Positions 46,574 through 64,000 of a DNA stretch of 64,000 nt are shown here, piece by piece. This DNA comes from Peristeroidobacter soli. GTDB lineage: Bacteria; Pseudomonadota; Gammaproteobacteria; Steroidobacterales; Steroidobacteraceae. Position 1 is the first letter of the stretch, and every line of letters begins with the position of its first letter. The stretch is taken from positions 1,276,640-1,340,639 of the forward strand of contig NZ_ML142848.1 in NCBI RefSeq assembly GCF_004138485.1, read 5' to 3'. A program made the position numbers and the translations under genes. The notes below the pieces were generated by a model. It did no database searches. It was not told where the DNA came from and was given only the letters and a program-made list of their open reading frames with translations.

Positions 46574-47725
46574 ATGTCACGACCGAACCAGTTATTGCTG
46601 GTCCTGAGCTTCGTGGGATTCATCGCACTGGGCCTGCCGGATGCGGTGATCGGTGTCGTGTGGCCCGCGCTGCGCGTCCACTTCGGATTGAATCAGGATG
46701 CGTTGGGCCCGCTGTTCATCACAGTGACCGTGGGCTCGGTGATGGCGAGCACGGCCAGCGGCGTCATCCTGAGTCGAATGGGTATTGGCGACCTGCTCGC
46801 GTTCTCCTGCGCTCTGACGGCCGTCGCGCTGTTCGGCTATACGCTTGCGCCTTCGTGGACTGTTTTCGTCGCCATTGGGTTGCTGACGGGTTTCGGTGCG
46901 GGTGCCATCGACGCGGCAATCAACACTCACGCGGCGACGCGCTACTCAGCGCGGCTGGTCAATGTACTGCATGCGTTCTATGGCGTCGGCGCAGCGGCAG
47001 GACCGGCGTTGATGACCACCGTGCTGACGACAGGTCGCCCCTGGCAGCTCGGTTATCAAATCATCGTCGTCGTCGAGATCCTGCTTGCAGTTGCATTCGT
47101 TCTGTCGCGACGGCAGTGGCCGCCACCGGTGGCCTCGCATGAAGATCCTCTTCGACCGGCGCGTTTGATCGAGACGTTGCAGCTCGGCAAAGTTCAACTC
47201 TCATTGCTGGTGTTCCTGATCTACACAGGTTGCGAAGCTGCGGCGGGCGCGTGGGTATTCTCGTTGTTATACGAGGCTCGCGACATCACGACCGCAGCAG
47301 CGGGCACAGCCGTCACCCTGTATTGGGGCGGTTTGTTTGCGAGCCGACTCGGGTATGCGTTCCTGCCCTCGACCGTCAACCCGGAATCGATCGTCAAGCT
47401 CTGCATGATCGTAGCGCTTGCCGCTGTCGTGACGTTGCTGCTCGATCTGCACCCGAGGGTGGACACCGTGGCCATCGCCGTGATGGGCTTCGCCGCCGGA
47501 CCGATCTTTCCCTCGATGATCGCAACCACTCCAGCACGCGTCGGTCCCCGCCACACGGCGAACACCGTCGGCTTGCAGGTATCGATGGGCGCGGTGGGTC
47601 TCGCAGCATTGCCCGCGCTGTGCGGCTTGATCGCTCAGTACTGGGGATTGGAGCTGATCCCGGTGGTGCTGATCATAGGATGGACGGTACTGCTGTCGAC
47701 CTACCTCGCACTGCGCCGCCTATAG
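46574..47725 (+). CDS. MFS transporter
   Basis: 383 residues with about twelve membrane helices and the FucP/sugar-like small MFS layout (LLLVLSFVGFIALGLPDAVI; GFGAGAIDAAINTHAATRYS; LHAFYGVGAAAGPALMTTVL). It follows ftrA closely and is likely under its control. Direction and substrate are not predictable from sequence. Its stop overlaps the convergent VanB-type reductase gene by 6 bases. Confidence 0.88.
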   Translation: MSRPNQLLLVLSFVGFIALGLPDAVIGVVWPALRVHFGLNQDALGPLFITVTVGSVMASTASGVILSRMGIGDLLAFSCALTAVALFGYTLAPSWTVFVAIGLLTGFGAGAIDAAINTHAATRYSARLVNVLHAFYGVGAAAGPALMTTVLTTGRPWQLGYQIIVVVEILLAVAFVLSRRQWPPPVASHEDPLRPARLIETLQLGKVQLSLLVFLIYTGCEAAAGAWVFSLLYEARDITTAAAGTAVTLYWGGLFASRLGYAFLPSTVNPESIVKLCMIVALAAVVTLLLDLHPRVDTVAIAVMGFAAGPIFPSMIATTPARVGPRHTANTVGLQVSMGAVGLAALPALCGLIAQYWGLELIPVVLIIGWTVLLSTYLALRRL

Positions 47726-48685
47726 ATCCAGCACCAGTCGCGACGACTTCGCCCGCGAGCAACAGGGCGTCATCTGATCGTTCCGTGCCCGTTCCTGATC
47801 CGTGAGGAAAGAGTCTCGATGATCTGGCACGCCGGAGATCACGCGCGTCAGGCACGTGCCGCACACTCCCTGGTCGCACGACGTCGGGATCTCGATGCCC
47901 TGATCGAGCAGCACTTCGACTATAGGCTTGTCGGCGGGAATCACGAACACCTGGCCGCTGCTCGCCAACTCCACTTCGAACTGCCCGGCCGGCGTGGCCG
48001 ACTGCTCCGCCGGCGCGAAATACTCGCGATGCGTCTGCCCGTCCGGCCAGCCTCGAGCCTTGGCCGTCTGCAGCACATGGCTCATGAAGCCGCTCGGCCC
48101 GCACACATAGATATGAGTTCCCGGCAGCGGCTCGCCGAGCACCTGGTTCGCGTCGAACCGTTGCTCGTCCGGGCCATCGTCGAAGTGCACGCAGGCCTGC
48201 TTCGCGAACGTCGATTGTCGAATGCGCTCCAGGAACGCAGCTCGCGCCCGAGACCGCGTGCAGTAATGCATCTCGAAGTCGAGGCCGCGACGCGATAGAT
48301 ACTCGGCCATGGCCAGCAGCGGCGTCACGCCAATGCCGCCGGCAAGCAACAAGTGACGATCGGCGTTTGCCGCGAGCGGGAAATGATTCTTCGGCTCGCT
48401 GACTCGGATCACATCCGCCACTTTGACAGTATCGTGAAGCGCAACCGAGCCGCCACGCCCTTCAGGCTCACGAAGCGCGGCGATGAGGTAACGATGTTGT
48501 TCGCTCGGGTCGTTGCATAGCGAATACTGTCGAATCATGCCCGGCCCGAGCTCCACATCGACGTGAGCACCCGGCGTGAACGGAGGGAGCGCCCGCCCCT
48601 GCGGATCGATCAGCTCGAACGAGCAAATCTGTTGCGCTTCCTCACGGCGCGCAGCGACTTTCAGTTGCAGCCAGGAATGAATCAT
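47720..48685 (-). CDS. VanB/PDR-type oxygenase reductase
   Basis: 321 residues: flavin-binding domain 1-100 (GMIRQYSLCNDP), NAD-binding domain 105-225 (LLLAGGIGVTPLLAMAEYL; IYVCGPSGFMSHVL) and a plant-type 2Fe-2S domain at the end with CDQGVCGTC plus a fourth Cys in TPCCS. This is the phthalate-dioxygenase-reductase/VanB layout, which passes electrons from NADH to a Rieske oxygenase. No Rieske oxygenase gene is present. It is last in the TonB receptor-MFS-reductase operon, its ATG overlapping the permease stop (ATGA). It may serve the nearby P450s. Confidence 0.92.
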   Translation of the reverse strand: MIHSWLQLKVAARREEAQQICSFELIDPQGRALPPFTPGAHVDVELGPGMIRQYSLCNDPSEQHRYLIAALREPEGRGGSVALHDTVKVADVIRVSEPKNHFPLAANADRHLLLAGGIGVTPLLAMAEYLSRRGLDFEMHYCTRSRARAAFLERIRQSTFAKQACVHFDDGPDEQRFDANQVLGEPLPGTHIYVCGPSGFMSHVLQTAKARGWPDGQTHREYFAPAEQSATPAGQFEVELASSGQVFVIPADKPIVEVLLDQGIEIPTSCDQGVCGTCLTRVISGVPDHRDSFLTDQERARNDQMTPCCSRAKSSRLVLDL

Positions 48686-49938
48686 CGTGATACCGCTTGC
48701 GCAACCGGCTGCACGAACTGCATCGGTTGCTCACGCCTCGGATAGGGCCCCAGGGAAAGAAGAATCAAAGCGCCGACAGCGAACACCGCCGACGCAACGT
48801 AGAAGCTCACATCGTAGCTGGCGGTGCGATCGAACACGGTCGCGAACGCGACGGGAGCGACGCCCGAGCAAATCGCCAGCACCGCATACAGCACGGCGTA
48901 GATCTTGGCGTAGTGTTTCAAACCGAAGTAACGCGCGGTCAGGAACGACATCAGATCGAGCTCGGCGCCCGCCGCGAAACCGATCAGCAGCGCCGCGAAG
49001 CAGGCCAAATGGAACGACGGCGTTCCCACCAACATGAAACAGCCCACCACTGGCAGACACAACGCGACAGCGGCGACGCCCGGCGCCCAGAAGCGATCGA
49101 TCAGATAGCCGACGACCAGGCGACCGAGCACGATCGCGAGGCCATACATGCCTTGCACGCTCGCCGCATCGTGAGCGGACATGCCGTTGTCCGTGAGGGC
49201 CGGAATCAGGTTGGGACTGATGCCGGACACGGCCATGTACACACATAGAATGGAAATGAACAGGATCCAGAACTTGTAACCGCGGAACGCTTCGCCAAGC
49301 GTCAGCCCCCAGCTCGCGTCGGCTACCGGTCGTGCTTTGCCAGCGCCGGCGCCTTCGGGCCGGAAGCCGAGATAAACGATCGGCCCCGCGAACAGAATCG
49401 GCAGCAAGGCAAGGCCGATGTACGCCGCCCGCCAACCGAACGATTCAACCAGCCAGACGCCATACTGAGGCGCAAGCACGGCGCAGATCCCCGTACCCGT
49501 CAGCGTCAGCCCGAGCGCGATGCCTCGCGTGCGATCGAAGTTGGCGGTGATCGCGCTGGTCCACGTCACTGGCGTGGTCCCGGCGCCAAACACCGCCATC
49601 ACGCCATACGCGACATAGAGCATCCAGAGCTGTCCCTGGATGAACGCCGCGAAAATGAATCCCAGGCTCAATCCAAACAAGCCGACCAGCGCCGTGCGCC
49701 GCGCGCCGTAGCGATAAATGAGCCAGCCTACGACAGGTGCGATCAACGCGCCGAGGCCGGCGCTGAACAGGATCGAAGACTGGAACTGCGCTCGCGTCCA
49801 TCCAAACTCTGCGGTGAGCGGCTTGACCAGCACACCGATGGAATAGAACGGCAGCACCACCGAGCTGCAGGTGACGCCCGCGCAGGCTGCCAGGATCAGC
49901 AGCCAGCCGCGGCGCAGTTCGTCAGTGCGTCCGGTCAA
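48682..49938 (-). CDS. MFS transporter in the TonB receptor operon
   Basis: 418 residues from TTG 49938, which overlaps the receptor stop (TTGA). Twelve membrane helices, MFS loop GWLIYRYGARRTALVGLFGL, a TrpTSAITANFDRTRGIALGL segment and a second half with GMYGLAIVLGRLVVGYLIDR. The oxalate/formate antiporter or monocarboxylate-porter branch fits best. Likely inner-membrane uptake of what the receptor brings across the outer membrane. Longer frames to 50295 read through the receptor gene. A TTG start is chosen because no ATG precedes the first helix. Confidence 0.88.
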   Translation of the reverse strand: MTGRTDELRRGWLLILAACAGVTCSSVVLPFYSIGVLVKPLTAEFGWTRAQFQSSILFSAGLGALIAPVVGWLIYRYGARRTALVGLFGLSLGFIFAAFIQGQLWMLYVAYGVMAVFGAGTTPVTWTSAITANFDRTRGIALGLTLTGTGICAVLAPQYGVWLVESFGWRAAYIGLALLPILFAGPIVYLGFRPEGAGAGKARPVADASWGLTLGEAFRGYKFWILFISILCVYMAVSGISPNLIPALTDNGMSAHDAASVQGMYGLAIVLGRLVVGYLIDRFWAPGVAAVALCLPVVGCFMLVGTPSFHLACFAALLIGFAAGAELDLMSFLTARYFGLKHYAKIYAVLYAVLAICSGVAPVAFATVFDRTASYDVSFYVASAVFAVGALILLSLGPYPRREQPMQFVQPVAQAVSR

Positions 49939-52217
49939 AACGAGTATCCCACCGTCACGCCGTAGCTGCGGGGGGAGCCGCCGAACGCTTGGTAACCCAC
50001 ACCCAACGAGCGAATATCGACGTAGTCCGTGTTGGTGATATTCCGGCCGAACATCGAGAACGACCACGCGCCGAGGTCGTAGCCGATGCTCGCGTCGAGA
50101 ATGCCGTACTCCGGCATCACCAGCGCGTCGAAATTTCTCACGTCGGTGTCGGCCTCGGCACGACGCTCGTAGGCGAGGCGAGTTGCCAGCTTGCCTGCGC
50201 CGATATCGACCGTGTACGTGGCGGCGACATTCGCCTTCCACGGAATCACTCGATCGAACTTCAGATCGGTCGGATCGGTCACGCCGCCGCCGCATGGCGG
50301 ACAGGTGATACCGAGCAGCGTGTCGTACTTGGCATCCACCGTGCCGTAATTCACATCCAGACGCAGCGAATCGATGGGCAACCAGCTGACCTCCAGCTCC
50401 ACGCCCTGGATGGTTGCCGCGCCGGCGTTGAACAGGGTCGAGATCGGCGGATTGACGCCCGGCACGGTGCCGGTGCGTTGAATGTCCTTATAGTCCTGAT
50501 AGAAGTACGCCGCGTTCACGCGCAGGTTGGGCAGCAGATCGGTCTTCGCTCCGATCTCGTAAGCCGTGTTGGTCTCTGGATCGGCCGGCACTGGAATGGC
50601 GGCGGCACTGCCGCGAGCATTGTAATTACCGGCGCGATATCCCACTGCGTAACTGAGATAGGTCGTGATATCGCTGTTCGGCCGATATGTCAGCACCGCT
50701 CGCGGCGTGACCTTGCTCCACTTCGAAGAATCCTCGATCGGCTGATCGACGCACAGCGCATAGCTTGCGCCGCACGCCGTGAGCGGACGGCGCATGTGGA
50801 AGTCCTTCTCGTCCTCGGTGTAACGCAAGCCCGCCGACAGCGTCCATCGGTCGGTGAAGTGATAGTCGAGATTGGCGTAGACCGCCGAGGTCGTGGAGTC
50901 CTGATTCCAGTAAGACGCGAAGTGATTGACGATGGTCGAGGTGTTGCTGCGGATCTCGCGCAACTCGGTCACGTCGGACTTGGCATCCATGTAGAAGACG
51001 CCGACCAGATAGTCGAGATCGTCGGTGATGTTGCCGTTGAAGCGCGATTCGATGCTGAACTGCTCCGCCTTCTCGACGTTGTCCGGGAAGATGGTCAGGC
51101 TGAACGGCGTGCCGTCGACGTTGATGGTCGCCTTGTAGTCGAGGTCACGATGCGCGACCACCGTCGTCCAGGTGCCGGCGTCGAAGTCCCATTGCAGCTC
51201 ACCGATCGCGTGCCATGCCTCGATCTTGGTGTAGCCGGTCTCGGCCACGTTGGTTTCGTACTTGCCGGGATTCGGCGTGAAGCCCCACTGCGTATTGAGC
51301 GCCGTCGTCGCCGCGTCCCCGGGCACGACGGAGCGTGCGACGCCGCCGCCATCGTCGAAGTTCTGATACTGAGTCAGCAACGTGAATTTGACATCGTCGG
51401 TCGGCGTGAACACGAACGTCGGGCGCACGATCAAATGATCCTGAGCCGCGATTCTGCCGGTGGAGTGCTGCACCGGAGTGCCGTCGATATTGTTCACGTT
51501 GCAGTTCGGCGTTCCCGTCGGACACACCGGCACCGCCGCGTACGTGCCCTTCAGCGTGTTCTTGATGCGGCCGTCATCTTCGTGAGTCATGACGGCGAGA
51601 CGCGCCGCAAGCTTGTCCTCGATGAGACTGCCTTCGATCGCCGCCTTCACTTCGCGCGTGTTGGCATCGCCGATGGTGAAGTTGATATTGCCGTTGAAAT
51701 CGCCCGTCGGCCGACGCGAGCGCAGGACGATCGCGCCGCCGGACGCGTTACGGCCGAACAACACACCTTGTGGACCGCGCAGCACTTCGACGCTCTCGGC
51801 ATCGAACGTATCCAGCACCGCGCCGGCCTGATAGTCGATCACCATGCCGTCCTGGAGAATATTGACCGGCGCGTCGATGGATCGCGTGCTGTTGGTGTTG
51901 CCGACGCCGCGGATCACGAAGTTCGAGAAGCCCGGAAAAGTGCCGACCGGATCGAGCTGCGCGTTCGGCACGATGCGGCCGATGTCGGTCACGCTGACCA
52001 TCTGCGCCTGCTCGATCATGTTCCCGTCGACGGCGCTGACCGCCATGGGCACTTCCTGCACGGCGGTGCCGGCGGCTTTGCGCTCGGCGTAGACCAGCAC
52101 CTCTTCCAGCTTGGGCGCTTCACTGGCCGCCTCGTCCGCCGCCCATGCCGGCGTGCTCACGGTGCCGCCGACCGCGGCCAACGCCAGCCCCAACAGACCT
52201 CTGGTTTGCATCGACAT
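49935..52217 (-). CDS. TonB-dependent receptor
   Basis: 760 residues from ATG 52217 (GGGGG site six bases upstream). Signal peptide (RGLLGLALAAVGGTVSTPAWA), then plug domain (LEEVLVYAERKAAGTAVQEV; FVIRGVGNTNSTRSIDAPVN; VEVLRGPQGVLFGRNASGGA) and a 22-strand barrel ending VTVGYSF. It belongs to the broad iron/vitamin/organic-substrate group whose members in Xanthomonadales and Steroidobacter take up aromatic or terpenoid compounds. It heads an operon with an MFS permease and a VanB reductase. Two operator-like palindromes lie 94-130 bases upstream. Confidence 0.93.
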   Translation of the reverse strand: MSMQTRGLLGLALAAVGGTVSTPAWAADEAASEAPKLEEVLVYAERKAAGTAVQEVPMAVSAVDGNMIEQAQMVSVTDIGRIVPNAQLDPVGTFPGFSNFVIRGVGNTNSTRSIDAPVNILQDGMVIDYQAGAVLDTFDAESVEVLRGPQGVLFGRNASGGAIVLRSRRPTGDFNGNINFTIGDANTREVKAAIEGSLIEDKLAARLAVMTHEDDGRIKNTLKGTYAAVPVCPTGTPNCNVNNIDGTPVQHSTGRIAAQDHLIVRPTFVFTPTDDVKFTLLTQYQNFDDGGGVARSVVPGDAATTALNTQWGFTPNPGKYETNVAETGYTKIEAWHAIGELQWDFDAGTWTTVVAHRDLDYKATINVDGTPFSLTIFPDNVEKAEQFSIESRFNGNITDDLDYLVGVFYMDAKSDVTELREIRSNTSTIVNHFASYWNQDSTTSAVYANLDYHFTDRWTLSAGLRYTEDEKDFHMRRPLTACGASYALCVDQPIEDSSKWSKVTPRAVLTYRPNSDITTYLSYAVGYRAGNYNARGSAAAIPVPADPETNTAYEIGAKTDLLPNLRVNAAYFYQDYKDIQRTGTVPGVNPPISTLFNAGAATIQGVELEVSWLPIDSLRLDVNYGTVDAKYDTLLGITCPPCGGGVTDPTDLKFDRVIPWKANVAATYTVDIGAGKLATRLAYERRAEADTDVRNFDALVMPEYGILDASIGYDLGAWSFSMFGRNITNTDYVDIRSLGVGYQAFGGSPRSYGVTVGYSF

Positions 52218-52310
52218 GCCGATCCCCCAATGCTGTTTTCTAGGATTTGAAGCCCGCCTCGTGGGCCGGCCGCCCACTGCGGGCTCGAAGCACAGACTAC
52301 ACTCGTTTAC

Positions 52311-52346
52311 ATCGATTTCGATACATCATTTTTCATCGATATCGAT
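52311..52346 (-). promoter_or_regulatory. Twin palindromic operators before the TonB receptor operon
   Basis: ATCGATTTCGATA (52311-52323) and the perfect palindrome ATCGATATCGAT (52335-52346) lie 24 bases apart. The first is identical in 13 bases to a site at 61435-61447 before the P450 operon. Two or more helical turns between them would suit binding by paired dimers. The second site forms the last codons and stop of the 52333 gene, so the operon end and this promoter region overlap. No convincing -10 element is seen. Confidence 0.65.
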
Positions 52347-53154
52347 ATTTATGCGCGCGTAGCGACTTTGTGGCGCCCAGGGCACAGCGGGCCCGGACCG
52401 CGTAATCGAGAGTTTCGTGGGCCGTGTTCGGCACTTCGATGCTGAGCGGCACGCCGTCGGGCAACGCGTCCAGGAGCGCCCCCAGTGGCAATGCCCCTTC
52501 GCCCGGAGGCAGACGAGCGGTGCGCGCCTCCCGAGCCAATAGCTCGTCGGGCGGCGCAGCGGCCGGCGCGTCGCAAAGCTGCGCAAGAGCGATGCTGTCC
52601 GGTGACAGCGTCGCGACTTGTTCGGGAGTGCCGCCCGAGCGCGCCAGGTGCAACGCGTCGATCAACACCTGCACATTCGGCCGTCCAGCGAGATCTATCA
52701 GCCGCATGGCGGACTGCAGATCGGTCACAGCGCGAAAACGCATGAACTCCAGCGCAACCCCGGTCTTCGCTGCCGCCGCGATATCGGCCAGCTCGGCAAG
52801 TCGATCTGCCGCGCGCCGCGCATCTGAATCCTCGACGACGGTTTGAATGAAGCTGAATCCCAGCTCCGCCGCCACATCGACGACGGCTTGCAGCTGCGCC
52901 CGAGTCGAGACTGGAGTGAGACTGACGACTTCGGCATCGAGCAACGAGACTCCAGACTCGCTGCACGCTCGCTTGATCGCGCGTATCAGCGGAACATTGC
53001 CGACCACCGCCGGCGCGCCGGCGAGATGTCGCGGCGGCAGAATTCGCAGCCCCGCCGATTGGTAGCCCGCCTCGGCGGCGGCCGCGATGTGTTCCAACGG
53101 GCCGGCGCCATCGACGGTCAAATATGCCAGCGAGAAAGCCCCCTGCCGCCACAT
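52333..53154 (-). CDS. Sugar phosphate isomerase/epimerase-like TIM-barrel protein
   Basis: 273 residues of the xylose-isomerase-like/AP-endonuclease-2 superfamily: SLAYLTVDGAGPLEHIAAAA, TGVALEFMRFRAVTDLQSAM, VQVLIDALHLARSGGTPEQV and a late IEVPNT, giving several of the metal-ligand acids of the fold (Glu, Asp, His, Glu). In catabolic operons these proteins isomerise or cleave cyclic intermediates. Last gene of the ten-gene operon, 12 bases after the ACMSD-like gene. Its last codons coincide with an operator. Confidence 0.85.
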   Translation of the reverse strand: MWRQGAFSLAYLTVDGAGPLEHIAAAAEAGYQSAGLRILPPRHLAGAPAVVGNVPLIRAIKRACSESGVSLLDAEVVSLTPVSTRAQLQAVVDVAAELGFSFIQTVVEDSDARRAADRLAELADIAAAAKTGVALEFMRFRAVTDLQSAMRLIDLAGRPNVQVLIDALHLARSGGTPEQVATLSPDSIALAQLCDAPAAAPPDELLAREARTARLPPGEGALPLGALLDALPDGVPLSIEVPNTAHETLDYAVRARCALGATKSLRAHKYRYR

Positions 53155-53166: not shown

Positions 53167-54162
53167 TCAGCTCTGACGCAGCAGCCGACGTGCGTTGTCG
53201 GCGAGCTGCTGCGATATGTGGTGCGCATCCATGTGCTCAGGCTGATCCCAACCCGCGAAGTTCGTGCCCAACACCAGCCGATCGGCACCGACGAGGCGCT
53301 CGAGCATTTGTCGTGACATCGGATCGTGAACGTGATCGTCGTACCAGAGGCGGCGCAGCCGCTGCACGAAGGCGTCCTCGTCTCGCAGCGGCCCCTGCGA
53401 CCATGGCCGCTTACGCGCGGCTTGTGAGAAACGGCCCGCAAGAAACGCAATGGCGCCGCCGCCATGACTGACGCATATGTCCAGATCCGGATGCCGATCC
53501 AGTACGCCGCCATAGATCAATGTTCCGACCGCGATTGTTTCCTGCGCGGCGAAGCCGATCAGCAGATCCAGGTCGAAATGACCGACGGCGGGAAATGCCG
53601 CCGGGCCATCGATGCCCGCCGGCGCCGGATGCAGGAACAGAGGAACATTCAATTCCACGAAGCGCCGATACAAAGGATCCAACCGCGGCGAATCGAGACG
53701 AATGCCGAACTCGGTGCCCACGTAGGCCCCCCACATGCCCAGCTCCCGCACCGCTCGCGTCAATTCCAAAGCCGCCAGCTCCGGCTCCTGCATGGGCAAC
53801 GCGGCGAATCCGGCGAGGCGCTCCGGATAGCGCTCGACCAGTTGCGCCAGCGTGTCGTTGTGCCGGCGACAGAAGCTCACTGCCGAGGCGGCCTCGACAA
53901 AATGAAAGTACGTCAGTGGATTCGGCGACAGCACCTGAAAGTCGATGCCCGCTTTGTCCATGGCGGCGATGCGCAGGTCCGCATCCATGAAGGCGCTGCC
54001 ACGATAACGTACGCCATGCAGCTCGTAGCCGCCGACGCGAAACAGCGGCCGACCGTCGGGCGCCGTCGTCAGCTCGGGGCCATGGTGGCCCGCCGTGCCG
54101 AAAGTTTCTTCGAGCACGGCGTGCGCGTGAATGTCGATGGTGCGTGCGGTCTTGATGGACAT
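53167..54162 (-). CDS. ACMSD-like amidohydrolase family protein with altered metal ligand
   Basis: 331 residues of the aminocarboxymuconate-semialdehyde decarboxylase (Amidohydro_2) family. The N-terminal HxH is IDIHAH (H12, H14), further histidines are in LFLHPAP and VSHGGGA. Where ACMSD and relatives have a metal-ligand Asp in a GxD motif, this protein has Asn301 (VLGTNFAGWDQP). Family members are zinc-dependent decarboxylases or hydrolases of aromatic or cyclic acids. The change could mean a different metal mode, a hydratase-like activity or loss of catalysis. Starts 5 bases after the epoxide hydrolase-like gene. Confidence 0.85.
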   Translation of the reverse strand: MSIKTARTIDIHAHAVLEETFGTAGHHGPELTTAPDGRPLFRVGGYELHGVRYRGSAFMDADLRIAAMDKAGIDFQVLSPNPLTYFHFVEAASAVSFCRRHNDTLAQLVERYPERLAGFAALPMQEPELAALELTRAVRELGMWGAYVGTEFGIRLDSPRLDPLYRRFVELNVPLFLHPAPAGIDGPAAFPAVGHFDLDLLIGFAAQETIAVGTLIYGGVLDRHPDLDICVSHGGGAIAFLAGRFSQAARKRPWSQGPLRDEDAFVQRLRRLWYDDHVHDPMSRQMLERLVGADRLVLGTNFAGWDQPEHMDAHHISQQLADNARRLLRQS

Positions 54163-56118: not shown

Positions 56119-56848
56119 GCGCCTCGAGCCCCCGTTTAGCTTCGTTCATCATCGCGGGCTCGAGCAGCCACTGCACGGCGCGCTTCAAAATACTCAAATG
56201 GGTCGGCTCAGCGATCGAATCCGGCCCATGCCCCAGAGCGTCGTAGATCACGCGCCCCGCACCATAGCGATAGCGCCACATCACCGGATGAGATTCGTCA
56301 TCGCTTGCGGCGCGAGCTCGTAACAGTGGCTCGGCTTCCGGCGCGACTTGCAGACCTCGATATACTTCGTCGAACACTTCGAAGGGCGGCGCGGCGGCAA
56401 CGATGCCGTCACCATCGATCGTGCGCTCCACTCGAACCTTGCCCGCCGGCGGATGAGACGACTGACCCCACACCCAACCGGCACCAAGAATCCTGGCCCA
56501 TTGCGCCCAGCCGTCGAAGCAGATGCTTGCCGTGTGGAGCCCAAGCAACGAGCCACCCTCGCGCACGTAACGCTCGACGCTGTCACGCGCACCGGACGAC
56601 AACTCGAACGCATACTGTTCGCGAAGCGGCGCGTACTTCTCATGCTGGGTCATCGTGAACAACAGTGCGTCGATAGTCAGCAGCTCGCAGTTGCTCACAT
56701 CGATATTGCGCAACGCCGCGTCAGCGCCGGACACAATGGTCGTCTGCACTCCCATGGGCTCGATGGCCCCCGCGAATGCCGCCGCTGTGGCCGCGAAATC
56801 GTGATAGATGCCGCCAGTCACCAAGAGTTGTCGCAGAAGCTTCGCCAC
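56111..56848 (-). CDS. ThuA-like (trehalose utilization-type) protein
   Basis: 245 residues of the ThuA amidotransferase-like fold: RQLLVTGGIYHDFAATAAAF, YVREGGSLLGLHTASICFDGW, PFEVFDEVYRGLQV, and the glycine-rich YGAGRVIYDALGHGPDS. The H-D/H-T residues shared by the family are visible. I place the start at GTG 56848, 5 bases after the upstream SDR stop; alternatives run into that gene. ThuA-family proteins sit in sugar and cyclic-compound catabolic operons; for most the reaction is unknown. Confidence 0.85.
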   Translation of the reverse strand: MAKLLRQLLVTGGIYHDFAATAAAFAGAIEPMGVQTTIVSGADAALRNIDVSNCELLTIDALLFTMTQHEKYAPLREQYAFELSSGARDSVERYVREGGSLLGLHTASICFDGWAQWARILGAGWVWGQSSHPPAGKVRVERTIDGDGIVAAAPPFEVFDEVYRGLQVAPEAEPLLRARAASDDESHPVMWRYRYGAGRVIYDALGHGPDSIAEPTHLSILKRAVQWLLEPAMMNEAKRGLEAHA

Positions 56849-56853
56849 CCGGA

Positions 56854-57594
56854 TCAGTCCCGGGGCAGTTGCATCAGGATGCTGTTGACCACGCCGCCAT
56901 CCACGACCAGCTCGTGACCGTTGATGTAGGCCGCCTGCTCCGATGCCAGAAACAGCACTGCATTCGCGATGTCGTCGGCGACGCCGAGCCGGCGCTGCGG
57001 AACCGCGCCGCCTCGCAGCTTGCGCACTTTTGGATCCGCATAGATCGGCGCCGACATGCCCGCATCGATAAAGCCCGGAGCGATCGCGTTGATGCGCAAC
57101 CCCGCCGGCGCCCATTCCAGCGACATGTGCTGGGTGAGCGAGGCCACCGCGGCCTTGCTCGCCGGATACGCTCCGGCACCCGGGCCCGGATGCACGGCAT
57201 TGATCGATGTAATGTTGATGATCGAGCCACTGCCTCGCCCGACCATGCGTCTGGCCACCGCCTTGGCGCTGATGAAGCAGCCAATCAAATTCACCTCGAC
57301 CACTTTCTTGAACGACTCCGCCGACTGTTCGAGCAGCGGCCCGAAGCGCACGATGCCGGCGTTGTTCACCAGCACGTCGGGAACCTCGCCGAACTGATCG
57401 AGCACAGCCTCGACATCGGCTTCGCTGCTGGTGTCGGCGCGATAGCCGACCGCATTCGGGATGCGAGCGGCAGCGGCCTTGACACGCTGCTCATCGACGT
57501 CGACCAGACCGACCCGATAGCCCGCCTGACTCGCGCGCAAGGCGATCTGCTCGCCGAGCCCGCCGCCGGCCCCCGTCACAATCATCGTTTTCAT
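56854..57594 (-). CDS. SDR oxidoreductase following the P450 pair
   Basis: 246 residues starting at ATG 57594, which overlaps the P450 stop (ATGA). MIVTGAGGGLGEQIALRASQ, NNAGIVRFG, Ser in INITSINAVHP, and the catalytic Tyr-x3-Lys in YPASKAAVASLTQHMSLEW. The proline after Tyr is unusual but common in ketoreductase branches. C-terminal INGHELVVDGG. Would dehydrogenate alcohols generated by the P450s; NAD versus NADP preference cannot be fixed (LVDVDE after strand 2 favours NAD). Confidence 0.92.
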   Translation of the reverse strand: MKTMIVTGAGGGLGEQIALRASQAGYRVGLVDVDEQRVKAAAARIPNAVGYRADTSSEADVEAVLDQFGEVPDVLVNNAGIVRFGPLLEQSAESFKKVVEVNLIGCFISAKAVARRMVGRGSGSIINITSINAVHPGPGAGAYPASKAAVASLTQHMSLEWAPAGLRINAIAPGFIDAGMSAPIYADPKVRKLRGGAVPQRRLGVADDIANAVLFLASEQAAYINGHELVVDGGVVNSILMQLPRD

Positions 57595-58793
57595 CGCGTG
57601 AACACCACGGGGTAGCGGCCCCAATTCGGACGTTGAGTATGTGCATCGGGCACCGGCGGCTGGTCGGGATCCGGCCGCACACCCGCATCGAGCAGCGCGC
57701 CGATCAGCAGCGAGATCAACCCGTACTGATGTTTGGCTGGATCGGTATCGGGCTTCGCGATCACACCGCCGTCGAGATCACGGCCGAGACACGTGTGCAC
57801 ACCGGAGCTGAAGGTCAGCCCGAACGGAAAGTGACCTCGCGGAATGACACGCGACGGATTGAACTCGCCCGCATCGGCGCCGTAGATCGACGGATCGCGA
57901 TTGGCCGAGGCCAGATCGATCACGACCCGATCCTGCTCGGTCAACGCGTCGCCGCCCTGCATCGAGAACGGACACGTCGGCCGGCGCCATGCCACCGGAC
58001 TGGCCGGATGCAGTCGCAGGCTTTCATGCACACAGCGTTGCAGAAACAGGCGGTCTTCGACGACCCGCTGCCAGTCCTCCGGATGACGCTCGCACCAGAG
58101 GAAGATCTCGTGCATCGCATGCGCCAGGGAATTCGACGTACTGTGCGACCCGGCCTGCAGATAGAACGCCATCTCTCGCAACAATACGTCGGGCGGCAAT
58201 TCGACGCGGTCTTCATTCCGAAGCAGCACAGTGAGAATGTCTCGAGGCAGCTCCTCTTCGGAAAGCTCGCCGCGGCCGAATTTCGCGATCAGCTGTTGTC
58301 GTCGGCGGATGGACGGCTGCACGAAGCGCGCATCCAACACCTGCAGCGCCGCTCGCACCTCCGACTCGACTTCACTCTTCACTCGTTTCGAGTGCACGAG
58401 CGTCGCGCCCTCGCTGAAGATCTTCACCAGCTCGAACAGCACGGCGGTTTCATCGGCGGAACCCTCCGGACGATCGATGCCCGCAAAATCCGCCGTGAGA
58501 TTCATCGTGACCCGGCGACCAAAGTCGATCAGATCCATGCGGCCGGCATCGAGATACGACGCCAGCGTCGCGGTCAGCGTCGCGGGAAACACGTCGCGCT
58601 CGTAGTACGCCAGGAACTCCTTGCGGAACACCCGGTTCTCGAGCAGGCGACGCAGCCGATGCTCTTCGCCGTCGAGCGTAAGCAGCGTCTTGTGCATGAT
58701 CACGGCGCCAGCGTCGTACAACGCCTGGACCATCTGCGGGTGGCGCAGCGCTTCGACGGCGCCGGCGTAAGAGCTGACGTGATGTTCTTTCAT
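57591..58793 (-). CDS. Unusual cytochrome P450, copy 1
   Basis: 400 residues. Heme signature FSSGVHTCLG with Cys335, ExxR at E257-R260 (ESLRLHP), substrate-recognition and B-C region L-x-L-DGEEHRLRRLL near residue 40. Three oddities: the N-terminus is about 50 residues shorter than in ordinary bacterial P450s; the I-helix acid-alcohol pair is replaced by AGSHST (His217); and about 18 extra residues follow the heme loop (DGGVIAKPDTDPAKHQYG). The paralogous copy next door shares all three. ATG overlaps the stop of that copy (ATGA). Electron partner unknown. Confidence 0.9.
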   Translation of the reverse strand: MKEHHVSSYAGAVEALRHPQMVQALYDAGAVIMHKTLLTLDGEEHRLRRLLENRVFRKEFLAYYERDVFPATLTATLASYLDAGRMDLIDFGRRVTMNLTADFAGIDRPEGSADETAVLFELVKIFSEGATLVHSKRVKSEVESEVRAALQVLDARFVQPSIRRRQQLIAKFGRGELSEEELPRDILTVLLRNEDRVELPPDVLLREMAFYLQAGSHSTSNSLAHAMHEIFLWCERHPEDWQRVVEDRLFLQRCVHESLRLHPASPVAWRRPTCPFSMQGGDALTEQDRVVIDLASANRDPSIYGADAGEFNPSRVIPRGHFPFGLTFSSGVHTCLGRDLDGGVIAKPDTDPAKHQYGLISLLIGALLDAGVRPDPDQPPVPDAHTQRPNWGRYPVVFTR

Positions 58794-60001
58794 CGGGCGA
58801 ACACGAGGGGATAGGCCAACCAGGTTTCACGCTCGGTGGACAGGTCCTGCTCCGCCTTGCGAGTCGGATCCGGACGCGCGCCGTGCGCGAGAAACGCCCT
58901 TGCCAGCAACGTGACCGTTCCGAGCTGATGAGTTTCCGGATTGGTCGTCGCGGTCGGCAAGTCGCCCGCCGCCAGGTTCTTGCCAAGGCACGAATGCACA
59001 CCTACGCCGAACGTGATGCCGTAGGGCATGCGCGGCGGAACTCTCGTGCGATGCGGATTGAACGATGCCGCGTCGTCACCGAAGGCATCGACTTGACGAT
59101 TGGCCTGATACAGATCGATGACGATCGTGTCGGTGGTCGTCGCCGCTTGCCCGTTCGGTAGCGACATCGGGCACATCGCCTTGCGCTTCGACACGGGGCT
59201 GGACGGATGCAGCCGGAAACTCTCGTGCACACAGCGCTGCAGGAACAGCACGTCTTTTTCCAGACGCTCCCGCTCGGCCGGATTGCGCTCGCACAGCGCG
59301 AAGATCTCGTGCATGGCATGCGACAACGAGTGGATCGATGTATGCGCGCCGGCCAGAAAGTAGAACGCCGTCTCGCGCAGCACCCGCTCGCGTGGCAGAT
59401 CGAGATTGAGCTCGTTGCGAAGCAGCAGCGTCAGGATGTCGCGCGGCAAGGCCGCTTCGTCGATCTCCCCGTTCCTGAACTTCGCCAACAGTGCTTCGCG
59501 CCGGGCGACCGACGGGCCGAAGAATCGTTCGTCGAACTCGCGCATGCCGTCGACGACCCGCTTCTTCAACTCCTCCGCCTCACTCGGCGTGCCCTTGAAC
59601 TGCCCCATCGTCGCGGCGTGCCCGAACACGCGCAGCAGTCTCACCAGATCCGCCGTCTCCTCCGGCACGCGCCGCTGGCGATCGATTCCCGCGAAGTCGG
59701 CGGTCAGGCCGATCATCGCTCGATAGCCGATCTCGACCACGTCACCTCGGCCGGCCGCGACGAACGGACGCAACGTTTCCTCGACGACCGGCGGCAGGAC
59801 CTCCTTTTCGTAGTACGAAAAAAAGTCCCGACGGAACACACTCATTTCCAGCGCGCGGCGTTGCTTGTGATCCTCGCCGTGCAGATTGACGAGCACGTCG
59901 GCCATGAGCGCCGCGCCCTCGTCGTACAGCGCCTGGCTCAGGTCCGGAATCGACAGCGTCTGCTGTGCTTCCTTGTAGCCGGTGACGGTGATGGTGCTCA
60001 T
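58790..60001 (-). CDS. Unusual cytochrome P450, copy 2
   Basis: 403 residues, paralogous to copy 1 along its whole length. Heme loop FGVGVHSCLG (Cys338), ExxR E260-R263 (ESFRLHP), I-helix AGAHTS (His220 at the usual acidic position, Thr kept). Shares the short N-terminus and the post-heme insertion (AAGDLPTATTNPETHQLG). The start ATG 60001 shares one base with the amidohydrolase stop; longer frames run back into that gene. The coupled, paralogous pair could form a heterodimer or act on successive positions. Substrate unknown. Confidence 0.9.
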   Translation of the reverse strand: MSTITVTGYKEAQQTLSIPDLSQALYDEGAALMADVLVNLHGEDHKQRRALEMSVFRRDFFSYYEKEVLPPVVEETLRPFVAAGRGDVVEIGYRAMIGLTADFAGIDRQRRVPEETADLVRLLRVFGHAATMGQFKGTPSEAEELKKRVVDGMREFDERFFGPSVARREALLAKFRNGEIDEAALPRDILTLLLRNELNLDLPRERVLRETAFYFLAGAHTSIHSLSHAMHEIFALCERNPAERERLEKDVLFLQRCVHESFRLHPSSPVSKRKAMCPMSLPNGQAATTTDTIVIDLYQANRQVDAFGDDAASFNPHRTRVPPRMPYGITFGVGVHSCLGKNLAAGDLPTATTNPETHQLGTVTLLARAFLAHGARPDPTRKAEQDLSTERETWLAYPLVFAR

Positions 60002-61353
60002 CAATTGGAATTCCTGGAACGCATGGCCAGCTCGCGCGTGAGAATGGCCTTGGAGTAATTGCTGGTACGCCAGCCGCTGATGAGCTGGCGCGGCGGAATG
60101 GGTCGCTGCAGATCGATGAACCGGCCATCCGCGATGACATGCTTGAGGCGGGCGCGGTCGCCGAGGATGGTCACGTCCTTCGACGGGTCGCCATCGACGA
60201 TGATGACGTCGGCAAGTTGATCGGGCGCGATCAAGCCGACTTTTCCCTCGAGTTTCAGCGCGCGGGCCGCGTCGAAGGTGGCGGCACGAATGGCCTGCAA
60301 TGCGGTGAAGCCAAGATCGCGAACGAACACTTCGAGCTCGCGATAGTTCCAATCGCCGAGCGGCGTCAGCGAGAAACCGCCTTCGGTGCCGCACAGGATG
60401 GGAACGCCGGCAGCATGCAGACGCTGCAGCGTCGCGGCGCTGTCCGCGATCTCGCGACGGAACATTTCCTGGAGCGCCGGATCGGCTCCCACTGCCGAAC
60501 CGAAGTCCGCCAGGTTGGCCTGGAACGTGAACGTCGGCACCACCGGAACTTTCCGCTCACACACAGCTTCGATGGCTTCCTCGTCCATATATGTGCCGTG
60601 CAGGATCATGTCGAAGCCCGCTCTGGCGGCATCTCGAGCGCTGCTCGCGTTCCGACAATGACCGACGACAGGAATACCCAGCGCGTGAGCGGTATCGCAA
60701 ACCGCACGCAATTCGTCGTAAGTCCAGACAGTGAGCTCACCGCGAGCGCGCTGGCGCGGCACCAGTCCGGTGACATGGACTTTGATCCAGTCGACGCCAT
60801 GTTTGATCTGCCGCCGCACCTCGCTCACGATCTCGTCGCGAGTCCGCGTGATCACCGCGTAGCCGCGTACGCCTTCATCGGGAATCAGGCGGCCTGCCGT
60901 GCCGCCGACCGAAGTCATCAACGCGTAACCGCCAGTGGCCATGCGCGGGCCTTCGATCACACCGGTTTCAATCGCGTCGCGCAGATCGACGCCGATCTCG
61001 AAGATGGAGTCGGCGTCGAAGAATCCGGTGACGCCGGCATACAGGAGCCGGCGCACATCCACGGCGGCGATGATCGCCGACAAGCCATGACGCCGGTGAA
61101 AAAACAGCTCGTCGTTGGAAATGGGGGCGTCGAAGGTGACGTGACAATGCGCGTCGATCAATCCGGGCATCAACGTCATGCCCGGCGCCGCCAGCCTGCG
61201 AACGTCCTGCAGGGTCGCGGCGCGGGTCGCGGCGGAAACGCCAACCGCCTTGATGCGCGAGCCTTCGATCAGCACGTCCGCAGCGAAGGGTGCGGAGCCG
61301 CTACCGTCGATGACGTTGCACCCCGTGATCAGAGTGACATTACTCAAGCACAC
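60001..61353 (-). CDS. Metal-dependent amidohydrolase, first gene of the P450 operon
   Basis: 450 residues from GTG 61353; TTG 61347 with GGGGG five bases upstream is an equally good start. Imidazolonepropionase/prolidase-like amidohydrolase: LMPGLIDAHCHVTF (HxH metal site), IKVHVTG, VVGHCRN, ILHGTYMDEE, and LCGTEGGFS where relatives have GTDAG, so the last acidic residue is Glu. C-terminal DQLADVIIVDGDP. Likely hydrolyses an amide, lactone or ester of the imported compound. Preceded by a sigma-70-like promoter and the 13-bp operator shared with the receptor operon. Confidence 0.9.
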   Translation of the reverse strand: MCLSNVTLITGCNVIDGSGSAPFAADVLIEGSRIKAVGVSAATRAATLQDVRRLAAPGMTLMPGLIDAHCHVTFDAPISNDELFFHRRHGLSAIIAAVDVRRLLYAGVTGFFDADSIFEIGVDLRDAIETGVIEGPRMATGGYALMTSVGGTAGRLIPDEGVRGYAVITRTRDEIVSEVRRQIKHGVDWIKVHVTGLVPRQRARGELTVWTYDELRAVCDTAHALGIPVVGHCRNASSARDAARAGFDMILHGTYMDEEAIEAVCERKVPVVPTFTFQANLADFGSAVGADPALQEMFRREIADSAATLQRLHAAGVPILCGTEGGFSLTPLGDWNYRELEVFVRDLGFTALQAIRAATFDAARALKLEGKVGLIAPDQLADVIIVDGDPSKDVTILGDRARLKHVIADGRFIDLQRPIPPRQLISGWRTSNYSKAILTRELAMRSRNSN

Positions 61354-61406
61354 CCCCGAATCCGATTTTGGCCGGACCGTGGCCCGTCCGATTCTCGTGT
61401 GCCGCT

Positions 61407-61435: not shown

Positions 61436-61447
61436 TCGATTTCGATA
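61435..61447 (-). promoter_or_regulatory. Operator ATCGATTTCGATA before the P450 operon
   Basis: Identical over 13 bases to 52311-52323 and similar to the palindrome at 52335-52346, both upstream of the TonB receptor operon. Overlaps the -35 of the promoter at 61407-61435. The regulator that reads it is not in the window. Confidence 0.7.
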
Positions 61448-61482
61448 TAAATTCTGGTCGGCGCCCGCAAGCCGATGATTCG

Positions 61483-62178
61483 TCACATGGCGGGCACGGG
61501 CGCGAGATCCCGCAACTCGTACAACACGACTTCGTTCGTAAGCACGGCTATCGGCTCGTCGCCCTCGCACGGGGCGGGCAAGGCATGGCGCAACTGCGTC
61601 CGTGCTCGAGCTGCATCCGACACCCGGTCGAACCAGAGCTCCTCGATGTAATCGTAGGGCAGCCCCCAGGGGCGGCCGGTTTCAGTGGGCTGAGCCTGGT
61701 TCTGCACGAAGCCGCGCATGCTCTGCCCGATCGGTGTCGCCAGCAGATTCATTGCGTGGAGCAACGCATCGGCGTCGAATTCTTCGCGCATCACGCCTGC
61801 CTGGAGCTTCGCGAATCGAATCAGCTTTACGCGCGCCGACGGACGCGGCTCTTGAACCGTCCGCTCCTCCATCAACGCGCAGAAATTCACGACGAGCCGG
61901 TCGAATGTTTGCACTTCGTCCGCCTCCATCGCGCCCTGCGAGCTCGTGTCTTCGCGGTGCGCGCGCCGTGATTCCGGCGACTTGTGCCACACGATGCCGA
62001 CGCCATCGTAGTCGTCGCCAGACTCGGGCAGCACGTCGCAATGAACGTAGCGCCAGATGTTCTTCCACCGCGGCATGCTCATGCCGAGCGCGCCGTGCTG
62101 TCGCCACCGTGGAGTGAATTGTTCGCGAGACAGCGCCGGGTTGCGACGCGCTAGATACATCAGCTTGGGTCGGATCAT
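61483..62178 (-). CDS. Tandem EthD-domain protein
   Basis: 231 residues made of two EthD-type ferredoxin-like units: first RPKLMYLARRNPALSREQFT with the WRQHGAL helix, second RVKLIRFAKLQAGVMREEFD. EthD proteins accompany P450 and polyketide-type oxidations and may handle intermediates or act in non-oxidative ring chemistry. ATG 62178 has GGGGGC before it; a TTG at 62193 overlapping the SDR stop is the alternative. Last gene of the operon entering from the right edge. Confidence 0.85.
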   Translation of the reverse strand: MIRPKLMYLARRNPALSREQFTPRWRQHGALGMSMPRWKNIWRYVHCDVLPESGDDYDGVGIVWHKSPESRRAHREDTSSQGAMEADEVQTFDRLVVNFCALMEERTVQEPRPSARVKLIRFAKLQAGVMREEFDADALLHAMNLLATPIGQSMRGFVQNQAQPTETGRPWGLPYDYIEELWFDRVSDAARARTQLRHALPAPCEGDEPIAVLTNEVVLYELRDLAPVPAM

Positions 62179-62189: not shown

Positions 62190-62939
62190 TCAACGCACCG
62201 TCCGTCCTCCGTCGACGATGAGTTGCTCACCCGTGATAAAACTGGCGCGATCCGATAGCAGCCAGGCCGCGGCTTCCGCTTGTTCCTCGGGCGATGACAC
62301 GCGACCGAGCGGAATGCCCTTGGTTGTCTCCTGCTCACCGCCCGGGCGCGTTCGCATCTGAAGCTCCATCATCTCGGTGCGCGTCGTGCCCGGGCAGATG
62401 CAGTTCACTCGCACGCCAAACGGCGCAGCGTCCAGCGCCACCGACTTGGTCAAGCCGATCACCGCATGCTTGCTCGCGCTGTACAGCGACAGGCCAGGGA
62501 AACCTCGCGTGCCGGCGATGGAGGACGTGTTCACGACCGCCCCCGCGCGTTGACGCTGCATGATTCGCAACTCGTGACGCAGACACAGCCATACCGATCG
62601 AACGTTGGTATCGAAGACCTGCTCATACATCTCGGCCGGCGTATCGACGAGCGGCACGGCATCCTGCGTCATGGCTGCGTTGTTGAAGGCGCCGTCGAGT
62701 CGACCGAACTCGCTTTCAATGAAAGCGAACAGACCTTCGATGCTCGACGCGTCACGCAGATCGGCGGATTTGAAGCAAGCACTGGCGCCAGCGGCAGCGA
62801 TTGCCGCCCGCCCCTCCGCCTCACGCCGAGCCGTCGCGATGACTCGTGCGCCCTCACGGACGAACAAACCGACGGCAGCGCGGCCAATGCCGGCGCTCGC
62901 ACCGGTAACCAGAATGACCTTGCCTTCGAGCATGCCCAT
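62190..62939 (-). CDS. SDR oxidoreductase beside the old yellow enzyme gene
   Basis: 249 residues from ATG 62939 (GGGGG site six bases upstream; ATG 62933 is a close alternative). VILVTGASAGIGRAAVGLFV, NNAAM, Ser in VVNTSSIAGTRGFPG, catalytic Tyr-x3-Lys in YSASKHAVIGLTKSVAL, and ITGEQLIVDGG at the end. Classical NAD(P)-dependent dehydrogenase, likely working with the enoate reductase upstream and EthD protein downstream in one operon. Confidence 0.92.
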   Translation of the reverse strand: MGMLEGKVILVTGASAGIGRAAVGLFVREGARVIATARREAEGRAAIAAAGASACFKSADLRDASSIEGLFAFIESEFGRLDGAFNNAAMTQDAVPLVDTPAEMYEQVFDTNVRSVWLCLRHELRIMQRQRAGAVVNTSSIAGTRGFPGLSLYSASKHAVIGLTKSVALDAAPFGVRVNCICPGTTRTEMMELQMRTRPGGEQETTKGIPLGRVSSPEEQAEAAAWLLSDRASFITGEQLIVDGGRTVR

Positions 62940-62950
62940 ACAACACCCCC

Positions 62951-64000
62951 TCAATGCAGCCGATCGAGCATGTCGCGCGAGAACGGCTGCAACGCCTCGG
63001 CGCCGCGCTCGGCAACTGTGCGCACCCAGTCGGGATTCGCCAACAACGCGCGCCCAACGGCGACCAAGTCGAACTCGCCGCGCGCAAGGAAATCTTCCAG
63101 GCGATCGATAGCTGCCTGATCGATCGCCGCGAACTGTTTGCCCTGAGGAGATTTGAAATCGTTGCCGAGCGTCACCGAGCCCACCGCGATGGTCGGCCGT
63201 CCCGATAGTTTTCGCGTCCAGCCCGCGAGCGTCAGATCGCTACCTGTGAACGCCGGATCCCAGAAGCGTCGGGTCGAACAATGGAAGACATCGACGCCGG
63301 CATCGACCAGTGGGCGCAGGAACCGCGTCAATTCATCCGGCGATGTGAACAGCTTCGCGTCGTAGTCGAGCTGCTTCCACTGCGAGAAGCGCAGCAGCAC
63401 GGGGAACGACGGGCCAACGCGCCGGCGAATCTCCTGGACGACTTCGACGGCAAAGCGGCCACGCCGTTCGAGCCCGCCGCCATAGCGATCGGATCGCTGA
63501 TTCGTGGTCGACCAGAAGAATTGATCGAGCAAATAGCCGTGCGCGCCGTGAATCTCGACGCCATCGCAGCCCAGCCGTTGCGCCAATACGGCGGCGGCCG
63601 CGAAGGATTCGATCGCCGCATCGATATCGGCCTGGGCCATCGCGCGCCCGATGGGACGATTCGCAGCCGCGAGGCCCGACGGACTGATGCGCGTCGCGGC
63701 GGCCAGTGTATCGGTCATGCCGACCATCGAGGGTTCGAACGCACCGACGTGCCACAGCTGCGGCACCAGGCACGCCCCCTCCTCGTGCACGGCTCGAGCC
63801 ATTTCCCGCCAGGCCGGCGCGGATTCGGCGTTCAATCGCGGCACGCAAGCACCGAACGCACCGATCTCATCGGGCGCGCAGCCTTCAGTGATGATCATCG
63901 CGACCCCGCCCGCCGCTCGACGCCGGTAGTAAGCCATAACCTCCGGGCCCGGAACGCCGCCGGGCGAACGTTCGCGCGTCATCGGCGCCATCACCACGCG
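62951..64000 (-). CDS. Old yellow enzyme-family flavin oxidoreductase (5' end outside window)
   Basis: Reads in from the right edge; 349 residues are visible and only the first few are missing. FMN-barrel signatures: VVMAPMTRERSPGG, the His pair in VEIHGAHGYLLDQFFW, NQRSDRYGGGLERRGRF, and FDLVAVGRALLANPDW near the phosphate site. Family members reduce alpha,beta-unsaturated ketones (enone reduction of terpenoids or steroids) with NAD(P)H. Head gene visible of a third catabolic operon whose promoter is beyond the window. Stop TGA lies 11 bases before the SDR start. Confidence 0.93.
   Translation of the reverse strand, partial: RVVMAPMTRERSPGGVPGPEVMAYYRRRAAGGVAMIITEGCAPDEIGAFGACVPRLNAESAPAWREMARAVHEEGACLVPQLWHVGAFEPSMVGMTDTLAAATRISPSGLAAANRPIGRAMAQADIDAAIESFAAAAVLAQRLGCDGVEIHGAHGYLLDQFFWSTTNQRSDRYGGGLERRGRFAVEVVQEIRRRVGPSFPVLLRFSQWKQLDYDAKLFTSPDELTRFLRPLVDAGVDVFHCSTRRFWDPAFTGSDLTLAGWTRKLSGRPTIAVGSVTLGNDFKSPQGKQFAAIDQAAIDRLEDFLARGEFDLVAVGRALLANPDWVRTVAERGAEALQPFSRDMLDRLH

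Follow-up and report, generated by a model that had tools for sequence, protein, structure and literature searches.

A sixteen-gene cluster with paired P450s and a common operator in Peristeroidobacter soli very probably encodes an apparently undescribed breakdown pathway for a small organic compound

Gene Content and Operon Layout

In this study, we analysed a stretch of 64,000 nucleotides of Peristeroidobacter soli (the window; bases 1276640-1340639 of contig C1, genome size 9.37 Mb), in which a cluster of 16 minus-strand genes runs from position 47720 to 93 bp beyond the window end at 64000. The cluster very probably encodes a real, apparently undescribed breakdown pathway for some small organic compound. 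The gene content, the linkage kept between species, the operator common to the operons and the state of the catalytic residues are observed facts. A catabolic pathway is highly probable because an importer, oxygenases, dehydrogenases and hydrolases stand under one operator, and because other importers adjoin the cluster elsewhere. We firmly believe that the genes form one dedicated catabolic regulon; with less assurance, we consider such a regulon, acting by the steps proposed below, the probable explanation of the whole. An earlier note on this DNA had suggested an undescribed import-and-oxidation pathway. This suggestion is supported by a unit that recurs in alpha-, beta- and gammaproteobacteria and by a common operator that also precedes the TonB/MFS/reductase operon, and no account of this gene set was found in a searched collection of open-access papers, a scope outside which most subscription journals and all preprints fall.

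Protein families were assigned by scanning the translations of all 16 genes against Pfam and NCBIfam. In the order of transcription, the genes encode an OYE-type flavin oxidoreductase (OYE), a short-chain dehydrogenase (SDR_D), an EthD protein, an Amidohydro_1 hydrolase (AH1), two P450s (P450a and P450b), SDR_C, a ThuA-like protein, SDR_B, SDR_A, a protein of the limonene-1,2-epoxide-hydrolase family (LEH), an Amidohydro_2 protein (AH2), a TIM barrel, a TonB-dependent receptor, an MFS carrier and a 2Fe-2S reductase. The earlier protein list was thus borne out for the TonB receptor, permease, reductase, two P450s, four SDRs with OYE, LEH, two amidohydrolases, ThuA and TIM barrel. The EthD protein had been called a tandem one; its first half matches EthD, whereas its second half (61483-61842) gave no Pfam match even at E<=10. 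No CoA ligase, thiolase, acyl-CoA dehydrogenase or ring-cleaving dioxygenase was reported among the 16 proteins, in agreement with the lack of ring-cleaving dioxygenase, CoA ligase and beta-oxidation genes noted before.

Adjacent genes overlap or lie no more than about 15 bp apart, except at two gaps of about 115 bp (52218-52332) and about 129 bp (61354-61482), which divide the 16 genes into the three minus-strand operons of mostly overlapping genes that the earlier note had described. The start codons were chosen by hand, and the gaps and overlaps depend on this choice; the start of the TonB receptor was set at an ATG (52217) in an open reading frame (ORF) that opens at 52277. The earlier note had also proposed extending the sequence past 64 kb. 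There the cluster continues with the end of OYE (93 bp more), a small divergent ORF and then a MarR regulator (C1:1341099-1341629).

A Common Operator Precedes the Three Operons

Related palindromes built on ATCGAWWTCGAT precede OYE, the AH1 operon and the TonB operon. The 18-base extended pattern had four matches with at most one mismatch (two exact) in the 9.37 Mb genome, all of them in the cluster, while the reversed-pattern control had none. A shorter pattern matched five times in the window against 1.00 expected, and none of 100 shuffles reached five. Across 14 genomes of the genus, the extended pattern was found four times in our genome and twice, exactly, in a second Steroidobacter carrier (G008); two other genomes had one single-mismatch match each and ten had none. 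One rare operator thus stands before all three operons, which indicates that they form one regulon. Co-expression is thereby predicted, which partly answers the check that the earlier note had set. A MarR gene lies beside the cluster and the palindrome is common to its operons, as in a MarR-controlled regulon. The MarR regulator is probably the binder of ATCGAWWTCGAT and would be released by a ligand.

Conservation of the Cluster and Its Operator in Other Genomes

The relatives set comprised 98 genomes, including our own, and was searched with P450b (query P0011) at E<=1e-20. A wider scan of one genome per species (84,980 species) yielded 195 P450b relatives, and the best-scoring 80 loci of these 195 were analysed. 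The two locus surveys overlap and are not independent at five places, where the contigs of L020, L021, L022, L031 and L061 are those of G008, G015, G032, G053 and G035.

In the relatives set, the P450b family was found in six of the 98 genomes (our own included), with two genes in each. Each of the five other carriers has AH1 next to the P450s; AH2, LEH and the SDRs are found again, with altered order and strand. The family is rare: our genome was the sole match at E<=1e-60 among 398 sampled genomes of the phylum, and the closest relative in the species scan, 90% identical, came from a record titled Steroidobacter sp. In G008, one contig carries the reductase (83% identity), MFS (85%), TonB (90%), TIM (73%), AH2 (91%), LEH (77%), SDR_A (87%) and SDR_B (87%), and a second contig carries MarR, OYE, SDR_D, EthD, AH1, both P450s, SDR_C and ThuA.

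Gene content was counted in the 32 of the 80 loci with a length of 21 kb or more. All 32 have P450b-type genes and SDR_B; SDR_C and AH1 were present in 31 each and ThuA in 30, followed by P450a-type genes and AH2 (24 each), SDR_A (22), MarR (16), LEH (13) and MFS (11). Two P450 genes were present in 30 of these loci, one in one and three in one, and all six core kinds occurred together in 21. By their record titles, the 80 loci belong mostly to alpha-, beta- and gammaproteobacteria, and the carriers include Steroidobacteraceae, sphingomonads and Comamonadaceae; some titles are labels of metagenome-assembled genomes and possibly wrong (L060 'Klebsiella pneumoniae', L080 'Janthinobacterium lividum', L090 'Pelagibacterales'). 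The importer genes that adjoin the cluster elsewhere vary by lineage and are of the MFS, LIV-type ABC (with binding proteins) or TRAP kind.

Operator sites in the 80 loci were counted in the 250 bp before labelled genes. Exact palindromes ATCGANNTCGAT occurred 15 times in 44,081 upstream positions (14 loci) against once in 500,903 within-gene positions, and one-mismatch palindromes 45 times in the same upstream positions (30 loci). With 59 permuted half-sites as control, the upstream count had a mean of 0.73 and a maximum of 5. A site was present in 20 of the 24 MarR-bearing loci. In 21 carrier genomes, a looser pattern matched 93 times in forward form and 8 times when reversed as a control, with control matches in 8 of the 21. 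All these patterns were derived from our own window, so the counts are biased towards relatives of its own site.

Several results weigh against one dedicated catabolic regulon. Among the 32 long loci, OYE was found in only five, TonB in three, SDR_D in two, and EthD and TIM in one each; the reductase was labelled in none of them, and in none of the 80 except through G008. The shorter operator pattern has an exact match outside the cluster, at 18567-18578 (+), and the two congeners with a single-mismatch match lack the P450. Moreover, in 50 of the 80 loci, PS1/OCS116-type loci among them, the 250 bp before the labelled genes hold no site, and 51 one-mismatch sites lie inside labelled genes (500,903 positions). 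The absence of EthD, SDR_D, OYE, TIM, TonB and the reductase from most other loci is what would be expected of unrelated operons that are neighbours by chance. Against such a chance neighbourhood stand the rare operator before all three operons and G008, in which the same genes, 71-92% identical, are kept on two contigs and AH1 and TonB are preceded by exact operators and OYE by a one-mismatch palindrome. On this conservation and this operator, we rejected it as scarcely credible.

Plasmid pTHN of Novosphingobium sp. THN1 carries a near-complete cluster as well (L101:11174-41203), which includes molybdenum hydroxylase genes, OYE, SDR_D and an end-truncated EthD. The plasmid has 1.16 Mb and is typed as conjugative, and from this copy the pathway may be mobile between strains. 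A link of this strain's cluster to microcystin was considered and rejected: the one passage on a P450 that was found in its expression paper concerns something else (PMC6691742).

The Paired P450s

Conservation of residues was evaluated in alignments from which hits below 33% identity, hits covering less than 85% of the query and hits with a stop were excluded. Both P450s score above the Pfam p450 cut-off. The ExxR motif (E257/R260) and the heme cysteine C335 are near-invariant (>=97%) in 93 P450b-type sequences, as are the matching sites in 52 P450a-type sequences, which makes both proteins members of the superfamily. An acid-alcohol pair is usual in the P450 I helix, though not universal. 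At the acid position, the P450b-type sequences have His (76), Gln (14), Phe (2) or Gly (1), and the P450a-type sequences have Phe (26), His (23), Gln (2) or Leu (1). Asp, Glu or Asn was never found there in the 93 and 52 sequences, and the pair is thus lacking; the residue that follows is Ser or Thr with a single exception. A histidine at this position is reminiscent of CYP51. In a midpoint-rooted tree of 146 rows, built by a quick method, WIN_P450a falls in a 71-row group with an SH-aLRT support of 100, which indicates that the two P450 kinds split before they spread across these lineages.

The family is isolated from solved structures, with a best single-sequence match of E 6.5e-13. The P450b model (mean pLDDT 83) retrieved only generic P450s of 16-21% identity in a fold search. 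Our P450s resemble the CypX/CYP134A1 type and other bacterial P450s in fold, ExxR and Cys heme loop, but the matches are partial, and ours form a two-clade family that is tied to the cluster and has His, Gln or Phe in place of the I-helix acid.

CypX is a P450 linked to cyclodipeptides. That it is the best profile match among solved chains (E 1.3e-16, partial coverage) could suggest a biosynthetic or tailoring cluster instead of a catabolic one. So could a lone homologous P450 of 42% identity on plasmid pSCAT of Streptantibioticus cattleyicolor (L100:15001-16176), which is flanked by large ORFs that look peptide-synthetase-like by eye. The surroundings of this homologue yielded no other gene of the cluster. 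Among our 16 proteins there is no synthase or synthetase, the operator marks the TonB receptor and the carrier gene, and ABC importers with binding proteins lie by the cluster in other lineages. A biosynthetic role is, in our opinion, very improbable.

Other Enzymes

SDR_B and SDR_C have the YxxxK motif of classical SDRs in 63/63 and 60/60 sequences, respectively. SDR_A lacks it and has SxxxR at this site in 30/30 orthologues. The same SxxxR is present in the atypical SDRs PDB 2z1n and 1o5i, which match SDR_A at E 2e-49 and 1.9e-48; these bear generic names only (dehydrogenase; 3-oxoacyl-ACP reductase), from which the reaction of SDR_A is not deducible.

The LEH protein scores 76.5 bits against a Pfam cut-off of 24 and thus belongs to this family. 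Its residues Y41, N43, R86, D88, W115 and D120, which we take to be the catalytic ones, are identical in 19/19 aligned sequences, the window's included; the earlier note had already reported all catalytic residues as present. The protein is a putative epoxide hydrolase, and its nearest solved chains are limonene-1,2-epoxide hydrolases (E 4.6e-22). The limonene pathway uses a flavin monooxygenase and a Baeyer-Villiger enzyme; unlike it, our cluster has neither among its 16 proteins.

The nearest solved relatives of AH1 are amidohydrolases of the arginine carboxypeptidase and Xaa-Pro dipeptidase (prolidase) type, with ochratoxinase and molinate hydrolase lower in the list. The ThuA-like protein has invariant His, Asp and Glu residues across 29 aligned sequences. 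Its model is confident (pLDDT 96.7), and the best matches of the fold search were ThuA-like proteins without a stated function, followed by sugar hydrolase domains.

Coordinates and Surroundings

Table 1. Genes and operator copies of the cluster, in window positions.
Feature	Position	Strand	Basis
OYE-type flavin oxidoreductase, first gene of operon 1	62951..64000, continuing to ~64093	-	Pfam Oxidored_FMN, full ORF read
SDR_D, short-chain dehydrogenase	62190..62939	-	adh_short_C2
EthD protein	61483..62178	-	EthD domain in first half; second half unmatched
Operator copy before AH1 operon, TATCGAAATCGATTGAAA	61430..61447	-	Pattern match
AH1, Amidohydro_1 hydrolase, first gene of operon 2	60001..61353	-	Pfam
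P450a	58790..60001	-	Pfam p450, tree, I-helix alignment
P450b	57591..58793	-	Pfam p450, alignment, structure model
SDR_C, canonical YxxxK	56854..57594	-	Pfam and alignment
ThuA-like protein	56111..56851	-	Pfam ThuA, model and fold search
SDR_B, canonical YxxxK	55357..56118	-	Pfam and alignment
SDR_A, atypical SDR, SxxxR replacing YxxxK	54562..55353	-	Pfam, alignment, solved relatives
LEH, limonene-1,2-epoxide-hydrolase family	54168..54569	-	Pfam LEH above cut-off
AH2, Amidohydro_2	53167..54162	-	Pfam; nearest solved relative aminocarboxymuconate-semialdehyde decarboxylase (E 3.4e-42)
Xylose-isomerase-like TIM barrel, last gene of operon 2	52333..53154	-	Pfam
Second operator copy, one mismatch, overlapping 3' end of TIM-barrel gene	52330..52347	-	Pattern match
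Operator copy before TonB operon, TATCGAAATCGATGTAAA	52306..52323	-	Pattern match
TonB-dependent receptor, first gene of operon 3	49935..52217	-	Pfam
MFS carrier	48682..49941	-	Nearest NCBIfam models L-lactate and oxalate/formate carriers, below cut-off
NAD-dependent reductase, C-terminal 2Fe-2S domain, candidate P450 electron donor	47720..48685	-	Pfam/NCBIfam

The genes around the cluster were read by eye. Sarcosine-oxidase-subunit-like ORFs lie at lower window positions (39457-44122, minus), and two GlxA/AraC-type regulators with an MFS carrier (43962-47725, plus) abut the reductase gene on the opposite strand. About 8 kb past the MarR gene is an RND efflux system (adaptor, pump and outer-membrane factor) with a TetR-like regulator (L001:13269-19036).

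Substrate Class and Proposed Pathway

The enzyme kinds give hints to the substrate. Judged by the kinds of importer, the compound may be small and perhaps anionic. The paired P450s suggest that methyl groups or adjacent carbons are oxidised. OYE, SDR_A and LEH point to an epoxide or a C=C bond, and AH1, AH2 and ThuA to the opening of a ring, lactone or amide or to decarboxylation. On these grounds we tentatively suggest a small, methyl-bearing, mainly alicyclic acid or lactone. The 'cyclic natural compound' of the earlier note would fit the epoxide hydrolase, OYE, the two P450s and the two amidohydrolases. The molybdenum hydroxylase, quinoprotein dehydrogenase and Rieske genes seen elsewhere fit an aromatic or N-heterocyclic compound equally. 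These genes, together with 2-oxopentenoate-hydratase-like genes, lie near the cluster in other genomes and are no particular pointer to an alicyclic compound, which counts against our suggestion. As a means of naming the substrate, the genes linked in other taxa give hints that are mutually inconsistent.

We infer the direction of transport, each reaction and the order of reactions as follows. MarR would bind ATCGAWWTCGAT before each operon and be released in the presence of the substrate or of an early product. Uptake would proceed through the TonB receptor across the outer membrane and through the MFS carrier across the inner membrane. The two related P450s, with electrons from the 2Fe-2S reductase, might then oxidise two positions, likeliest methyl groups or neighbouring ring carbons, and SDR_B, SDR_C and SDR_D would oxidise the resulting alcohols. 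OYE and the atypical SDR_A may act on conjugated C=C bonds, and the LEH protein could open an epoxide. AH2 would decarboxylate or hydrolyse, and AH1, with ThuA and the TIM barrel, would open the remaining ring, lactone or amide.

The operator marks further genes in other genomes. In an Erythrobacter genome (L123:8142-14714), exact sites occur about 8-14 kb from the cluster. They precede a molybdenum hydroxylase operon and an SDR with 32% identity to SDR_D, and are also found between the genes of a cytochrome-c-bearing quinoprotein and a TonB receptor. A divergent ORF of this locus resembles, by eye, a molybdenum-cofactor nucleotidyltransferase. In Sphingosinicella, one-mismatch sites stand before a Rieske oxygenase gene and before a TonB gene that has molybdenum hydroxylase genes behind it. 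CoxL-type molybdenum hydroxylase genes were found in 25 of 81 sequences (the 80 loci and the window) and Rieske alpha genes in eight. An N-heterocycle is a possible substrate with which these linked genes fit.

A lumichrome-like pathway for an aromatic N-heterocycle would have the P450s act on ring methyls and the amidohydrolases open a nitrogen ring. The breakdown would be finished by a molybdenum hydroxylase and a Rieske oxygenase, whose genes are linked to the cluster in some lineages and lie elsewhere in our genome. Besides the linked genes and their operators in Erythrobacter and Sphingosinicella, it is in favour of this reading that each near-complete cluster seen has a pair of P450s and a pair of amidohydrolases. 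The lumichrome (riboflavin) catabolic operon lum of Nocardioides simplex has a methyl-oxidising P450, proposed for the first methyl attack, several hydrolases, a xanthine oxidase and a Rieske oxygenase; its hallmarks are the fusion of P450 and redox domains, an extradiol dioxygenase and a pair of thiamin-dependent decarboxylase genes (PMC12746152). Lumichrome catabolism is the nearest published analogue that we found. It is like our cluster in being a catabolic operon with the idea of a methyl-attacking P450 and with several hydrolases, and its molybdenum hydroxylase and Rieske oxygenase adjoin our cluster type in some other genomes. It differs in most of its defining parts: ours has two small P450s of a different kind, LEH, OYE, three or four SDRs and ThuA, and the fused P450, the decarboxylase pair and the extradiol dioxygenase were unseen among our 16 proteins. 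With these parts missing, the lumichrome pathway in unmodified form was rejected. LEH, OYE and SDR_A have no clear role in an N-heterocycle pathway. The CoxL homologues of our own genome are distant (best 35% identity) and none lies in the cluster, and a molybdenum hydroxylase was accordingly rejected as a required part here. We regard an N-heterocycle pathway as unlikely, though less so than the other alternatives considered.

The Steroidobacteraceae, sphingomonads and Comamonadaceae among the carriers are groups of steroid degraders, and the cluster might branch off from the degradation of steroids, bile acids or polycyclic terpenoids, with the P450s acting on ring methyls or a side chain. 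CYP125- and CYP142-type P450s appear among the sequence and fold matches, and the MFS carrier distantly matches a conjugated bile-salt carrier model, below cut-off. These P450 matches are weak, and the LIV-type ABC genes by the cluster elsewhere suggest a smaller, polar substrate. The steroid 9,10-seco pathway has genes for CoA activation, thiolase and acyl-CoA dehydrogenase, and ring-cleaving dioxygenase. A CoA ligase, thiolase, acyl-CoA dehydrogenase or extradiol dioxygenase is not among the 16 proteins, for which reason a plain steroid pathway was rejected, the rest of the genome not having been searched for them. A side branch seems improbable to us.

Returning to the dedicated catabolic regulon, we speculate, as tentatively as for the substrate class, that it is a new pathway for a common biogenic compound that proceeds without CoA activation in Steroidobacter, sphingomonads, Comamonadaceae, Rhodobacteraceae and the uncultured PS1 and OCS116. 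It might be started by a P450 pair with His, Gln or Phe at the I-helix acid position, perhaps by C-C or C-O cleavage instead of plain hydroxylation, and be continued by an SDR without the catalytic Tyr and Lys.

Significance

If the pathway is shared by several proteobacterial classes, some of their members uncultured, this would imply a fairly common organic compound whose breakdown is undescribed in the papers surveyed. Among solved structures the P450 pair has no close relative, and its active-site helix is unusual. The operator marks further genes that join the pathway lineage by lineage. It is also a practical handle, and a reporter with its own regulator could reveal the inducing compound.

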